DNA from: an uncultured bacterium
Lineage (GTDB): Bacteria; Patescibacteriota; Minisyncoccia; Moranbacterales; GWC2-37-73
Assembly (NCBI GenBank): GCA_903851135.1
Contig: CAINNK010000018.1
Span: forward strand, 1 to 36,573
Direction: 5' to 3'
DNA: 36,573 nucleotides
Every line of letters starts with the position of its first letter. Position 1 is the stretch's first letter. Positions 15,964-30,302 of the stretch are shown here, piece after piece. A program made the translations under genes and the position numbers. The notes beneath the pieces were generated by a model. The model was given only the letters and a program-made list of their open reading frames with translations, did not search any database and was not told the DNA's origin.

Positions 15964-16722
15964 TCAGAGTGTCTCCCAAATCCCCTTGAAAACTTGGCGC
16001 AGGCCTTCGGCGGTGACGGCGTCGTGAATTTCAAAAAGGGAATGCGGTTTGGTGTGGGTGTTTACGATGAGGATATAATCTCCAAACACCGCCTGGGTCA
16101 CTCGAATGCTCTCGCCACCTGGCCAATATTTCATTTGTCGCGCCGGCAGTTGTTGACCCTCGAAAGAATGGCCCTCTTCTTTTTCATTGGTGACCATTTT
16201 CGAAACAATGGTTCCATTGGTTTGTTTCCAATACCATCCCAGCCAATCCCCATAGTGCTTGATTAATGAACTATCTTGCACGCCCCACCAAATTTTGTCA
16301 CGCTCAAGGCCACTGCGATTCCAATCAGGAGTTTTGCTATACAGATAGTCATTGAGTTGGGCTTCTTCGATGAAACGCACTTTTGGCACGGAATAACCTT
16401 GTGATTTTGGTAGCAGGGACAATTCTGGCAAAAGTGATTTTGCAATTGCAAGTTTTTCCTTAGCCTCTCGTTCTTTTTTTTCAGCGTCTCGCAGGATCAT
16501 CTCAGGCGAAAGTGCCAGAAAATGCAGCCCAGTTTGACCAGTTTCCTCCAAAATAAGCTCCATTTCAGCGAGTTTCTTACCAATCACATAGACTGTTGGC
16601 CGGCTTAGTCCGGTCTTTTTGGCGATGCGCGACGGGGCAATGTTGGCGTTTTCCAGCACGCAAAGATAAACGAGAATTTCGTTTTCAGACAGGCCTAGTT
16701 GTTGGAGTTTTTCTTGGATCAT
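15964..16722 (-). CDS. TrmB-like transcriptional regulator (module 1)
   Basis: MIQEKLQQLGLSENEILVYLCVLENANIAPSRIAKKTGLSRPTVYVIGKKL; start corrected from 16827, since the ORF extension reads through the repeat at 16787-16821. Confidence 0.85.
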   Translation of the reverse strand: MIQEKLQQLGLSENEILVYLCVLENANIAPSRIAKKTGLSRPTVYVIGKKLAEMELILEETGQTGLHFLALSPEMILRDAEKKEREAKEKLAIAKSLLPELSLLPKSQGYSVPKVRFIEEAQLNDYLYSKTPDWNRSGLERDKIWWGVQDSSLIKHYGDWLGWYWKQTNGTIVSKMVTNEKEEGHSFEGQQLPARQMKYWPGGESIRVTQAVFGDYILIVNTHTKPHSLFEIHDAVTAEGLRQVFKGIWETL

Positions 16723-16786
16723 AAGGATTGTCGCTGTTTTTTTATGTCCTTTGCTAAATGAATTTAACCCAAGCCAGTTAATCGTT

Positions 16787-16821
16787 GGAGGCTCAACCTC
16801 CATTATGGAGGTTGAGCCTCC
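16787..16821. repeat. Repeated hairpin element, copy 2
   Basis: GGAGGCTCAACCTCC-ATTAT-GGAGGTTGAGCCTCC, 15-bp perfect stem. Confidence 0.9.
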
Positions 16822-16985
16822 TTGCATCGGGCAGTGTTTTTATGGATTTAATATAGTGAAATTCTGTAGCTTGTATGAGGTAATTGTAGCATATTCTAAG
16901 ATATTTGTAAAGCATTTTACGACAGAATATTATAGCTTAGATAAAGCATAAAAGTGCTATTAGAAATAAAAATAGTATAGCCACC

Positions 16986-17015: not shown

Positions 17016-17055
17016 GACTTGTTATAGTTCATTGATATTTCATTTAGGCAAAAGT

Positions 17056-17121: not shown

Positions 17122-18195
17122 ATGAACAACACACGCACCAACATCTACACCCAGCTTGCTAAGTTGATTGGCAACACTCCGCTGGTCCGTTTCGACAACC
17201 TTCTTCCAAATGGCAACACGCTATATGTGAAAGAGGAATGTCGGAATCCTTGGGCCTTCAATCACTACGTGAGAGTATATTTCTCACTATTCCGCCACTT
17301 TGAAGCGGCGGGGGTGATTGTCCCAGGGCAGCGGGTGTACGACTTCAGCAGTGGCTCAGCCGGGATTGCGATGGCTGCCATCGCATCTCTGTTGGGATAC
17401 CCTTGTGAAGTCGGCATGCCAGCTGGTGGCGAAAAGGCTCGCGAAGATGCGATCCTGCAGTGGCTTCCTAGCAAGGAATGCCTGCACCTCACCGATGCTA
17501 AGACATACGTCGATGGAGCCGCCTGGTTCAGCTCTCGTCTGAGAGCGAAGAATCGGGACTTGTTTTTCTTCAATCACTCTATGTTCTTTGAGAACGGAGT
17601 GGTGAAGATCAACGAGACGGTGATGTCGGCGATGGCGACAGTGGCGGATGAGGTTTTCGCAGAGCTGGGTAGTGTCGGTCCTGACACATTCGTAGCCGTG
17701 TCAGGAAATGGAACGACCCAACTCGGATATGGAAGACGACTCAAAGAGTTGTCCCCAAAAACGAGAATGGTCGGTCTGGAGTGCTTCGAAAGTTCCCATA
17801 CTTTCGAAAAGCTCTATCCTGGTCGCGCTGAGGCGATGTATGGGGTGACGCCAGAAATGCGGAAGCAATTTCCGCGTCATGGTTTGCCCGGAACATCGTT
17901 TCCCGTTCACTTTGCTTTACCGGCGTTGGAAGCCTCGGTGCCACTTCTCGCAGATGAGAAGTTGGTCTGGTGGTGGAAAACAATCGGGGCATATGAAGCA
18001 TTGACGGGACGATCTGTTCCTGCGGACGCTATTTTCTGGGATAGAGATATTCCAGATGAGCTCCAAGGGTATGGTCGAACAACTCGCGCAGGCTATGCGG
18101 TGGCAAACGCTCTGGCAGAGGAAACTGCAGGGCAAAGCTACCTCATAGTGGCATACGATTTGGCGGACCGGTACGACTCGCCGACGGGGCGATGA
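17122..18195 (+). CDS. PLP-fold (cysteine synthase/tryptophan synthase beta superfamily) protein lacking canonical PLP lysine
   Basis: IGNTPLVRFDNLL, VKEECRNPWAFNHYVR, SSGSAGIAMAAIASLLGYPCEVGMP, VSGNGTTQLGYGRRLKEL; start at ATG 17122 behind ACGGAGAT. Confidence 0.8.
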   Translation: MNNTRTNIYTQLAKLIGNTPLVRFDNLLPNGNTLYVKEECRNPWAFNHYVRVYFSLFRHFEAAGVIVPGQRVYDFSSGSAGIAMAAIASLLGYPCEVGMPAGGEKAREDAILQWLPSKECLHLTDAKTYVDGAAWFSSRLRAKNRDLFFFNHSMFFENGVVKINETVMSAMATVADEVFAELGSVGPDTFVAVSGNGTTQLGYGRRLKELSPKTRMVGLECFESSHTFEKLYPGRAEAMYGVTPEMRKQFPRHGLPGTSFPVHFALPALEASVPLLADEKLVWWWKTIGAYEALTGRSVPADAIFWDRDIPDELQGYGRTTRAGYAVANALAEETAGQSYLIVAYDLADRYDSPTGR

Positions 18196-18204
18196 GCAAG
18201 ACTC

Positions 18205-18434
18205 GGACGGGAATACTTCACCCGTTGGCAACAGAAAATCCTATCATCCCATTTGTTCTTTCAAAAAGTTTAGGGAATAGGAGAAACGAAGGAGACCTGC
18301 ACCGAACAGGTCGAAGCGAGTCCGAAAGTCTCGAAAAAACTTTTACCAACTGCCGATATATTATCAAATATATCGGCTCAATTCTTAGGAATATATTTTT
18401 TCAAAATGTATTTCTAAGGGATGAAAAAAGTTCA
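18205..18434 (+). ncRNA. Structured intercistronic spacer, full-length copy 1
   Basis: ACGGG/CCCGT, GACCTG/CAGGTC, GCCGATATA/TATATCGGC and CTTAGGAATA/TATTTCTAAG hairpins; shared blocks with 19626-19830. Confidence 0.65.
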
Positions 18435-18462
18435 TTACAATCAAATAAAATAGGAGCTTATC

Positions 18463-18858
18463 ATGACACAGCCACAGAATGAAATAACCCAGGTGCTTAC
18501 TTATGAAGAAGTTAACAATTGCGCCGATAGCTATAGTCCTAGCTCTAAAGTGCTTGGAAAGTATGGATACAGATGGAACTACGGAGGAGACTTTCCCGAG
18601 GGTAGGAAAGATGTTTGTGTCGCAAAAAGTTTGTATGGAGATGGTGATAAGGAAGAATATCACACCCTGATCCTTATTTGGAAGGATGAGACTGGGGCGA
18701 TTCAACATCACAAGATTGATTGTTCTTCAAATGGTGGCGTCGTTTACGCTGAGAGTATTAAAGCTCTTGGAAATGAGATTACGGTCTCATATGTAAAAGA
18801 CGGGAATTACCCATGCAGGGCACCGCAACAAGAAAAGATCGTGACAATCAAGATTTGA
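18463..18858 (+). CDS. Hypothetical protein, 131 aa
   Basis: ORF preceded by AGGAG SD. Confidence 0.75.
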   Translation: MTQPQNEITQVLTYEEVNNCADSYSPSSKVLGKYGYRWNYGGDFPEGRKDVCVAKSLYGDGDKEEYHTLILIWKDETGAIQHHKIDCSSNGGVVYAESIKALGNEITVSYVKDGNYPCRAPQQEKIVTIKI

Positions 18859-18864
18859 TTAACT

Positions 18865-18948
18865 GGCTGACTTAGAAATTTTTCTGAGTCGGCCCAATTC
18901 TTAGGAATATATATTTAATGTATTTCTAAAGATTGAAAAAGTTCATTT
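18865..18948 (+). ncRNA. Structured spacer, short copy 2 (two tandem hairpins)
   Basis: GGCTGACTTAGAAA-TT-TTTCTGAGTCGGCC, then TTCTTAGGAATATATATTTAATGTATTTCTAAAGATTGAAAAAGTTCATT. Confidence 0.6.
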
Positions 18949-18969
18949 AAAAAATTATCGGAGAATATT

Positions 18970-19614
18970 ATGAAAAAAGCATTAGTCCTTGGTGGGAGTA
19001 GTGATATTGGAAGCGCAATCGTGATAGCCCTGGCTAACTATGAGGTTGTGTGGACATATTGCAACACCACTCGTCAGGAGAATCCTGGTAAAGGAATTTT
19101 CTGCGATTTACGAGATATGGAGCAGGTGAAAAACTTGCTTGCTGGAATGAAAGATATCGATTTAATGGTAACAGCTGCAATGCCGTTTATGCCATTTGAT
19201 AATCTTGATTTCGAGGGATATCTTGCAATCCGTCCTTTTTTGGATGCACATGTCTACGCCATTACATCTGCAAAAACAGTTATGGCTAGAGGCGGAAGAA
19301 TCATCAATATGCTTGGACAAAGTGTCGAGCATGGATTTTCCGGTTGTGCGTTCAATGCAGGGGCGTTCGCGTTCTTGCATAATCTTGGAAAGAGTATTAA
19401 TTCCAAGGAGGGACGGGAAGGCAGACTTTCAGTGTGTGATTTCCTTTTAGGTCCAGTGGAAACACGGATTTGGAATGGGTATCCCGAAGAGAAGGCAGAT
19501 TTTCTTGCGAAAGCAGGCAAGTTTATTTCTCCTCAGGAAGTTGCAAAAACCGTGCTTGAATATGCCGGTATGCAACTTCTTCCAGGCGAATGCATTCTCA
19601 ACGCATATCACTGA
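18970..19614 (+). CDS. SDR-fold protein without canonical YxxxK
   Basis: ALVLGGSSDIGSAIVIAL Rossmann start; expected catalytic region reads GCAFNAGAFAFLHNLGKS. Confidence 0.75.
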   Translation: MKKALVLGGSSDIGSAIVIALANYEVVWTYCNTTRQENPGKGIFCDLRDMEQVKNLLAGMKDIDLMVTAAMPFMPFDNLDFEGYLAIRPFLDAHVYAITSAKTVMARGGRIINMLGQSVEHGFSGCAFNAGAFAFLHNLGKSINSKEGREGRLSVCDFLLGPVETRIWNGYPEEKADFLAKAGKFISPQEVAKTVLEYAGMQLLPGECILNAYH

Positions 19615-19625
19615 TGGATAAATTC

Positions 19626-19830
19626 CGGACGGGACCACTTCACCCGTTGGCAACAGAACCATTGAAAAATGGAAATGAAGAAGATCCAACCCGAAGCGGA
19701 TCGCAACGAGTCCGAAAGTCTCGAAAAAACTTTCACCAACTGCCGATAGATAGAATGGTTCTCATCTATCGGCTCATCCCTCAGGAATATATTTTTGTAA
19801 AATGTATTCCTGAGGGATGAAAAAAGTTTT
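19626..19830 (+). ncRNA. Structured intercistronic spacer, full-length copy 3
   Basis: ACGGG/CCCGT, CCATT/AATGG, GATCC/GGATC, GCCGATAGAT/ATCTATCGGC, CATCCCTCAGGAATA/TATTCCTGAGGGATG (15-bp perfect). Confidence 0.65.
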
Positions 19831-19855
19831 TTAAAAATTTAATTAGATAACTAAA

Positions 19856-20551
19856 ATGAATATTTCAAAAAAAGTTTTAATTATCGGTGGAACATCTGGC
19901 ATTAGCCTTGAAGTTGCTCGTTTATTTAGTGTTACTCGAGAAGTTGTAATTATTGGAAGAAATATCACTAAGATATCAAGCGATCAAGTTTTGAAGAGTG
20001 CTTTGAAATTCTCTTGTGATATTGCTGACAGACAACAACGAGAAGAGCTCTTGTGCCAGTTGAAGAGTTTTCATATTGACACAATAATCCATTGCGCTGG
20101 GATATTTCAGACACAGGGGCAAAACAAGAGCACCTATGAGAAGGCTTATCAGGGCGTTAAACTTGGCGGAGTTGAAATAATTCGCGAAAGGATGAGAAGT
20201 CATCCTGAAGAAGTGAAAAATGTTTGCGCCATCAGCTCGGTCTATACTTTCTTGCCAGATTCGATTGTCCCCAAATTCGAGAAGGGAGTTCAGGAAGAGC
20301 TGGAGAGAGAAATATTTTCCTTGAGTGGAATTGTTGCGAACTGTGTTGCTCCTGGCTTGGTTAACACCCCGCTTACTCGAGCTGCTTATGGGGAAGATGA
20401 TATGAAAGAAATTCTTTCACTTGCCCCAGGGAGCAGAATGCTTGAACCAATGGAAGTCGCGAGAGAGATCTATGAACTTTCGAATCAGCAGGAAATCAGT
20501 GGAAAAGTGATTCTTGTTGATGGAGACTTTCTGAAGTTCTTGGCGGTATAA
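19856..20551 (+). CDS. SDR-fold protein without canonical YxxxK
   Basis: VLIIGGTSGISLEVARLF, HCAGIF, ISSVYTFLPDSIVPKFEKGVQEEL, VAPGLVNTPLT. Confidence 0.8.
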   Translation: MNISKKVLIIGGTSGISLEVARLFSVTREVVIIGRNITKISSDQVLKSALKFSCDIADRQQREELLCQLKSFHIDTIIHCAGIFQTQGQNKSTYEKAYQGVKLGGVEIIRERMRSHPEEVKNVCAISSVYTFLPDSIVPKFEKGVQEELEREIFSLSGIVANCVAPGLVNTPLTRAAYGEDDMKEILSLAPGSRMLEPMEVAREIYELSNQQEISGKVILVDGDFLKFLAV

Positions 20552-20563
20552 AAATTCGCTAAT

Positions 20564-20655
20564 CGCCGATAGATAGAATAGTTCTCATCTATCGGCTCAA
20601 TCCTTATAAATATATTTTTTCAAAATGTATTTCTAAGGGATGAAAAAGTTCATTA
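20564..20655 (+). ncRNA. Structured spacer, short copy 4 (two tandem hairpins)
   Basis: CGCCGATAGATAGAATAGTTCTCATCTATCGGCTCA then CCTTATAAATATATTTTTTCAAAATGTATTTCTAAGGGATGAAAAAGTTCATTACAA. Confidence 0.6.
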
Positions 20656-20682
20656 CAAATCAAATAATCAAAGGAGATAAAA

Positions 20683-20991
20683 ATGCAGATAGTTAAAAAA
20701 GTGTTAATTGTGATTATTGTGTTGTTGCTAACCGTAATTACGCTTGTAGTTGATTATATTGGCTACATATTGAAAAATGTGATCAATATAGTTGGGTTGT
20801 TGATTGGGTTTACAACAAGACTTCTAATTTTGCCAGGGTTGATGTGGCTAAGTAGCTCTAGAGTAAAAAAAATCAACTTTGAAGAAATCTGGAAAGTAGT
20901 TGCAGACGCTCCAATCGATTTTAACAGATTAATGGCGGCTTACAGAAATTTTTTAAACAGAATAAAACTGGAGATTAAAAATGTCAAATAG
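20683..20991 (+). CDS. Small membrane protein, 102 aa
   Basis: Hydrophobic N-terminal helices; AGGAG SD. Confidence 0.7.
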   Translation: MQIVKKVLIVIIVLLLTVITLVVDYIGYILKNVINIVGLLIGFTTRLLILPGLMWLSSSRVKKINFEEIWKVVADAPIDFNRLMAAYRNFLNRIKLEIKNVK

Positions 20992-21187: not shown

Positions 21188-21201
21188 TTCTCTATCTCGA
21201 G

Positions 21202-21235
21202 CGCAAGTGGAAAATCTTTTCCCTTGCGCTTTTTC
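21202..21235 (+). terminator. Terminator of accessory operon
   Basis: AGCGCAAGTGGAAAA-TC-TTTTCCCTTGCGCTTTTT. Confidence 0.75.
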
Positions 21236-26848: not shown

Positions 26849-26922
26849 GGCCAACTTGAAAATCTTTTCAAGTTGGCCTCCATCCTTGAGAGTATGAAAA
26901 ATTCGTACTTTCAAGAAATGGA
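26849..26922 (+). ncRNA. Two tandem hairpins; possible diverged copy of the short spacer element
   Basis: GGCCAACTTGAAAA-TC-TTTTCAAGTTGGCC then TCCATcCTTGAGAGTA-tgaaaaattcg-TACTTTCAAGaaATGGA. Confidence 0.6.
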
Positions 26923-27051
26923 GAAGGCAGGATAATGTGGTTTCCTCCAAAGACGGACAGGCAGGTCGGAGACGCTGAACCGACAATGGTTCATTGAAAA
27001 TTTAGTAAAATTAGATAAAACGTCAGCAACTTCTATTGGGCCAGTTTGATA

Positions 27052-29893: not shown

Positions 29894-29966
29894 CGGGGCG
29901 TGGTGTCAACGGCTAGCACGAGTGGTTTGGGACCATTTAGACAGGGTTCGAATCCCTGCGCCCCGA
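29894..29966 (+). tRNA. tRNA-Pro(UGG)
   Basis: Acceptor CGGGGCG/CGCCCCG (C1:G72), anticodon loop TTTGGGA (anticodon TGG, G37), T-arm CAGGG-TTCGAAT-CCCTG; CCA not encoded. Confidence 0.93.
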
Positions 29967-29975
29967 CATAAACTG

Positions 29976-30014
29976 AAAACAGAGAAGACTTTTTGAGTCT
30001 TCTCTGTTTTTAGT
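29976..30014 (+). terminator. Terminator after tRNA-Pro
   Basis: AAAACAGAGAAGACT-TTTTG-AGTCTTCTCTGTTTT. Confidence 0.85.
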
Positions 30015-30025
30015 TTTATATTGAG

Positions 30026-30302
30026 GCAGGGATTCGAACCGGCAGAAGTGAGCGCCGAGAGCAGACGAGGCAAGCGAACATAGATGAATGCGACCATAGG
30101 AGCATTCAGCTCTGCCGCGGGCAACGAGCAATCAGTAGATTGCGAGGCGGAAATCCCTGCGCCCCATATAAAAGACAGGGATTCGAAGGGTATTTCAAAA
30201 AAGCAAACGATTTTGCTTTTTGAAAACCCAGGCTCCGGAGGAGAGTTTTCTCTGTGTACTCACGAGAAAGTTTGGATGAGGAGGAATCCCTGCGCCCTGA
30301 CA
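30026..30302. repeat. Two tandem units bounded by tRNA-Pro T-arm/acceptor fragments
   Basis: CAGGGATTCGAA at 30028 and 30176; AATCCCTGCGCCC(C/T) at 30152 and 30285, matching tRNA 3' end 29951-29964. Confidence 0.7.

Follow-up and report, generated by a model that had tools for sequence, protein, structure and literature searches.

Structured RNA modules at gene ends in modular, TrmB-adjacent operons of Candidatus Moranbacteria

What purpose is served by a folded sequence that returns between every pair of neighbouring genes in one bacterial operon? This question is raised by the PLP-enzyme operon (17122-20991, forward strand) in the stretch of 36,573 nucleotides analysed here, referred to as the window. 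Its four intergenic spacers span positions 18196-20682. The initial annotation described them as four copies of one structured, covarying RNA, with tandem hairpins ahead of each gene and a longer 5' part in two copies. The sequences that it named are present, the tandem hairpins precede all four genes (starting at 18463, 18970, 19856 and 20683), and two copies of the long 5' part are present, from 18204 and from 19626 onwards. All four copies were found in the operon, but a fifth one, at 26849-26925 in another operon, had been missed. The spacers are structured as proposed, although they consist of two separable modules, a core and a hairpin pair, rather than one RNA. The analysis also adds two aspects not covered there: the modularity of the operon between species, and the presence of hammerhead ribozymes in equivalent spacers of sister operons.

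The features of the operon are collected in Table 1. The adjoining TrmB-type regulator is one of about 20 in the 1.28-Mb genome (G000), four of which lie within the window, and the putative promoter-like motif has the sequence CTTGTTATAGTTCATT. The first gene resembles cysK/cysM, with scores far under the cut-offs for both. The 131-aa cassette protein found no match in Pfam, NCBIfam or PADLOC, nor anything at E 0.001 in a fold search of the PDB; a defence-island check of ten cassette proteins against PADLOC was equally negative. SDR-like gene 1 is 94-96% identical to its versions in genomes G002 and G003, SDR gene 2 has no BLAST match at the equivalent loci of either genome, and the gene for the 102-aa hydrophobic protein is 95% identical in G002. 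The terminator-like hairpin with its T-run is common to other operons in the genus, including a second operon on contig C12 of the window's genome. Elsewhere in the window, at 29894-30290, a sequence like the 3' end of a tRNA (gattcgaa..ccctgcgccc) is repeated several times downstream of a tRNA gene.

Table 1. Positions of genes, signals and RNA modules in the window.
Feature	Position	Strand	Basis and remarks
TrmB-type regulator, divergent, adjoining operon	15964-16827	-	Pfam PF01978, E 2e-10
Promoter-like motif	17018-17033	+	Exact match here and ahead of C12 operon; function putative
First gene, PLP-dependent enzyme, cysteine-synthase-like	17122-18195	+	Pfam PF00291, E 1e-27
Core copy 1 (P1, lengthened P2, P3)	18204-18316	+	Model R3, 70.9 bits; begins 8 nt past stop codon
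Tandem hairpins, copy 1	18352-18428	+	Model R2, 61.6 bits
131-aa cassette gene	18463-18858	+	Relatives in G002, G003, G100
Tandem hairpins, copy 2 (short spacer without core)	18865-18940	+	Model R2, 85.6 bits; fold z -9.7
SDR-like gene 1	18970-19614	+	Weak adh_short match, under cut-off
Core copy 2	19626-19706	+	Model R3, 97.7 bits; begins 11 nt past stop codon
Tandem hairpins, copy 3	19742-19824	+	Model R2, 52.1 bits; fold z -12.9
SDR gene 2	19856-20551	+	Pfam adh_short_C2, E 3e-10
Tandem hairpins, copy 4	20565-20647	+	Model R2, 54.3 bits
Last gene, 102-aa hydrophobic protein	20683-20991	+	ORF
Terminator-like hairpin and T-run	21200-21234	+	Sequence; BLAST of terminator module
Tandem hairpins, copy 5 (another TrmB-adjacent operon, 22 nt past small gene)	26849-26925	+	Model R2, 87.2 bits; fold z -11.2

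The core, of about 80 nt, comprises three stems and a possible loop pseudoknot. Stem P1 (ACGGG/CCCGU, followed by UUGGCAACAGAA) varies little, while P2 covaries freely and is capped in most copies by a GNRA loop (GAAA, GCAA or GGAA). In the 3' half, AAACGAAGGAG follows P2 and is itself followed by P3, whose loop reads CCGAA; the joining segments are purine-rich and invariant. The P1 loop CUUC could pair with a GAAG to form the candidate pseudoknot, a pairing that is uninformative as covariation because it is invariant in 12 of 12 sequences. In 14 of the 15 clear copies the core begins 2-11 nt past a stop codon; the exceptional copy lies 37 nt past the nearest called stop and carries a stretch, GGCGATGAGCRAGACTCGG, that resembles the end of the PLP-enzyme gene. 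On its own, the core at 19626-19706 is moderately stable (fold z -1.7). A coding role was rejected for it, given that the lengths of the copies differ by non-multiples of three.

The hairpin pair closes all four spacers, about 30-40 nt ahead of the next start, and the first and third spacers hold the longer 5' part in addition; taken whole, these two long spacers reach fold z values of -7.8 and -4.7 against shuffled sequences. Hairpin 2 is a long, mostly AU-rich duplex, with 22-nt arms that are 95% complementary at 19774-19820. A U.G wobble within it is kept in 33 of 36 distinct copies, adjoining pairs that change freely, a pattern that a DNA palindrome could hardly account for and that is expected of a recognised RNA helix. 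The tandem hairpins fall into subtypes that differ at many pairs. Across all copies they mostly lie just past a stop codon or a core, often 30-55 nt ahead of a start, and roughly a third have no gene close downstream. The long-range GTTGG/CCAAC pairing suggested in the initial annotation is present in the window, but the C12 copy reads ACAAC and no CCAAC counterpart was seen in the spacers of a second family of the order; the pairing was discarded for want of conservation. Past hairpin pairs at operon ends, a further hairpin of the type GGTTCAGGTCGGAGACGCTGAACC was observed, with apparent compensatory differences (window about 26935-26990; L021 7130; L118 4610; L039 5405, reverse complement; L009 3290).

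The covariation that had been noticed by eye was borne out on the homologues at the level of whole helices. Changes on both sides were observed for 9 of 16 pairs in the core and for 15 of 18 in the hairpins, and the covariation scores exceed those of all shuffles and slid controls, in tests based on model-fitted alignments, one of which included opposite-strand matches that were set aside elsewhere. A tree-aware test, our own simplification of R-scape with a floor of 0.001, used sequence-only alignments and a null in which inferred substitutions are reshuffled over the tree. It returned p=0.001 for hairpin 2, p=0.003 for hairpin 1 and p=0.001 for both P2 and P3 of the core. Branches on which both partners are substituted were significant for the hairpins and P3, and not for P2 (p=0.20). 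No single base pair is significant alone at E<0.05; in the hairpin alignment, the four pairs that rank highest are all among those predicted for hairpin 2. Judged from these alignments, selection on RNA structure in the spacers is supported.

Covariance models built in this analysis (R1, R2 and R3) recovered 15 clear cores, in seven genomes from two Ca. Moranbacteria families, plus one degenerate copy. The hairpin search gave 39 sense matches, 36 of them distinct, after six palindromic matches on the opposite strand, mostly overlapping sense copies, had been set aside from the counts. All clear cores and all 39 retained hairpin copies lie on the sense strand. A dispersed repeat of the MITE or REP type was rejected, all copies being sense and most lying within tens of nucleotides of a stop codon or directly past a core; the initial annotation had also considered repeats unrelated to gene boundaries, which copies so bound to gene ends are not. 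The C12 operon, found by DNA search, follows the same plan with different genes. A divergent TrmB-type regulator and the motif lead to a small gene, which a long spacer separates from the next gene; a short spacer and a second small gene follow, and the terminator-like hairpin comes last. Four other species of this genus have further copies, and the models also detected cores in G100 and G102, which belong to a second family of the order, with TrmB-like regulators nearby according to their sequence.

A 27-base core pattern matched only five contigs in a collection of 85,462 species, two of them titled Moranbacteria or Moraniibacteriota and the other three corresponding to genomes of the genus already analysed, and had no match in the viral contigs scanned, which speaks against a viral source. 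Outside the two genera, the core model gave weak matches (E 1e-6 to 0.05); those inspected were attributed to chance, because they fell mostly within coding sequence (including LysS-like and UvrD-like stretches, both judged by eye) and did not show the core signature. In agreement with the statement that no known riboswitch class could be recognised, no convincing Rfam match was obtained for the spacers of the window or of the second family, at either gathering or permissive thresholds.

Several other sequences were observed in related operons. Between cassettes of the second family, L115 4750-5440 and L116 4910-5415 (reverse complements) hold 500-700 nt without evident genes, the former stretch containing the degenerate core copy. 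A candidate conserved leader RNA without an Rfam match lies ahead of a small gene (..RSKAELR..) at about 2100-2270 of L040 and on the reverse complements of L115 2800-2930 and L116 3300-3420, where sequence-divergent paired arms (GAGCCACACA/TGTGTGGCTC and AACCATGTG/CACATGGTT) flank GGGGCAATATTCA..CCCCC. Another repeated element, of the type GCTCATCATAAAAAAATGATGGGCACA..GCCTTTCGGGGCAAAGGGAGG, is found just ahead of genes at about 2545-2590 and 3795-3850 of L040 and about 4367-4420 of L116 (reverse complement).

The gene content of the operon varies between species. At the site defined by the PLP gene upstream and a phosphoglycerate-mutase-like gene downstream, the window reads PLP-131aa-SDR1-SDR2-102aa, G002 reads PLP-131aa-SDR1-102aa, and G003 reads PLP-SDR1-150aa followed by a tiny gene. 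The 150-aa gene of G003 corresponds, at 86% DNA identity, to the one that the window's genome has on C12. Moreover, the G003 spacer ahead of SDR1 is a hybrid that starts like the first window spacer and ends like the second, the switch point lying inside hairpin 2. Members of the 131-aa and 150-aa families, 24-33% identical to the first sequence of their respective alignments, are also present in the second family, and so, by eye, are members of other cassette families.

In sister operons the equivalent spacers can hold a self-cleaving RNA. Type III hammerheads (RF00008) were detected in three of 97 related genomes, all within this genus. Two of them reach the gathering score, most of the others score 41-47 bits, and those in L069 and L065 are weak; the ones whose sequence was read have intact core motifs. 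Most are located past a hairpin and shortly ahead of the downstream gene, and one, in L118, follows the promoter-like motif. One spacer of L040 consists of a core as in the window, a small hairpin, an A-run, a hairpin, a hammerhead and the start codon, an order in which the hammerhead takes, by position, the place of the window's hairpin 2. RF00008 has no match at 18150-20720 of the window or anywhere in its genome. The literature searched held nothing on hammerhead or self-cleaving ribozymes in Patescibacteria/CPR, on TrmB in Moranbacteria or Patescibacteria, or on structured or noncoding RNA in these groups. For the clustered hammerheads that flank single genes in prophages, a role in dividing long transcripts has been proposed (Perreault et al. 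2011, PMC3088659). Those clusters and the sister operons share self-cleaving RNAs between genes; unlike the prophage clusters, the operons described here are chromosomal and TrmB-adjacent, and the window spacers hold two other structured modules and no hammerhead.

The reading we favour, with a probability of about 60%, is that the spacers act at gene ends as RNA modules through which a polycistronic transcript, probably under TrmB control, is cut into messages that are each stable on their own; the cleavage, the stabilisation, the enzyme and the function of the core are inferred. An intercistronic processing or stabilisation element, one of the roles initially suggested, thus stands as the leading one. 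In its favour are the covariation that survives the tree-aware control, the conserved U.G wobble, the sense-strand location at gene ends, the hammerheads of the same operon family, the exchange of genes with junctions in spacers and the segmentation proposed for prophage transcripts; against it weigh the missing RF00008 match in the window's own genome and the lack of significance of individual pairs. The core would fold directly behind the stop codon, and behind the terminating ribosome, where it may act as a 3' cap or as a further processing element. The hairpin pair would be placed behind the core, or alone in short spacers, with hairpin 2 as a proposed target of RNase III or an enzyme like it, for double-strand cleavage or for 3'-end protection. 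Where a type III hammerhead stands in its place, as in sister operons, the RNA would cut itself. With spacers of this kind, unrelated genes could enter or leave without disturbing their neighbours, and the repetition of the spacers would also supply homology for the recombination observed between species. Phage T7 carries intercistronic RNase III signals, such as R1.1, which are long irregular hairpins between the genes of a polycistronic message. The spacers likewise combine a long hairpin duplex between cistrons with an RNase III gene in the same genome (contig C45, 4893-5540; TIGR02191, E 1e-69, above cut-off), a gene that lends weak support to this route since RNase III is widespread. Unlike the T7 signals, they have tandem hairpins and a stop-proximal core, and cleavage within them is putative. 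For the third of the hairpins without a close downstream gene, 3'-end formation fits better than segmentation.

That same third gives some weight to the main rival, in which hairpins and core act passively, with an effect like that of REP/BIME elements: they would stabilise 3' ends by blocking 3' exonucleases, or insulate translation by keeping ribosomes from running on, and no specific cut would be made. The very stable folds would suit it too; we nevertheless consider it unlikely, if with an appreciable chance, as conservation of the U.G wobble and of internal-loop positions points to specific recognition and hammerheads take the equivalent place. Alternatively, the core itself could be a new self-cleaving ribozyme. 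Its size, its invariant joining segments and the possible pseudoknot would agree with this, as would the hammerheads of the same operon family, one of which shares a spacer with a core in L040. That spacer, however, already has its hammerhead, the pseudoknot pairs do not vary in the 12 sequences, and neither the core nor its second-family relatives match any ribozyme, so that we find the idea improbable. The pistol ribozyme (RF02679) has a comparable layout, in which a hairpin is followed by a loop pseudoknot and another hairpin; its covariance model gave no match up to E 10 in the region of the window searched or up to E 1 in L115 and L116. The broader conjecture that the stop-proximal core is a new self-cleaving class, with two or more ribozyme or processing modules, unrelated to each other, used as interchangeable separators in plug-in operons that spread between families, is a long shot.

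The exchange of genes, with a junction inside a spacer, could also recall recombination sites of an integron-like cassette system acting as folded single-stranded DNA. Integron attC sites begin right past stop codons, as the core does, and attC arrays similarly have modular genes parted by structured repeats. We consider this very unlikely: in contrast to those arrays, no attC-ordered RYYYAAC/GTTRRRY pair was found in eight spacers, and the sole tyrosine recombinase of the genome (PF00589) is XerA/C-like, with XerA_Arch above its cut-off and the integron integrase model TIGR02249 at 126.7 against a cut-off of 265. Besides, hammerheads act on RNA, and homologous recombination at the repeats suffices as the simpler account of the exchange, no integron-type machinery having been found. 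Lowest in probability, and very unlikely, is a ligand-sensing riboswitch reused within one operon. The core is compact, with highly conserved unpaired segments; yet a single operon can have up to three clear copies immediately past stop codons, with genes on either side that are unrelated and exchangeable, which also speaks against the small-molecule sensor initially suggested, and neither an expression platform nor an Rfam match was recognised.

The analysis thus brings to light, in Patescibacteria, two RNA families that have no match in Rfam, tied by position to hammerheads of the same operon family. The role of most bacterial hammerheads is unexplained, and the repeated, gene-by-gene setting seen here suits a test of the segmentation idea, for which the hammerhead and hairpin versions of the same spacer provide a natural comparison. 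If the segmentation reading is true, these operons would illustrate one route to operon modularity, with each gene travelling together with its own message-end module.
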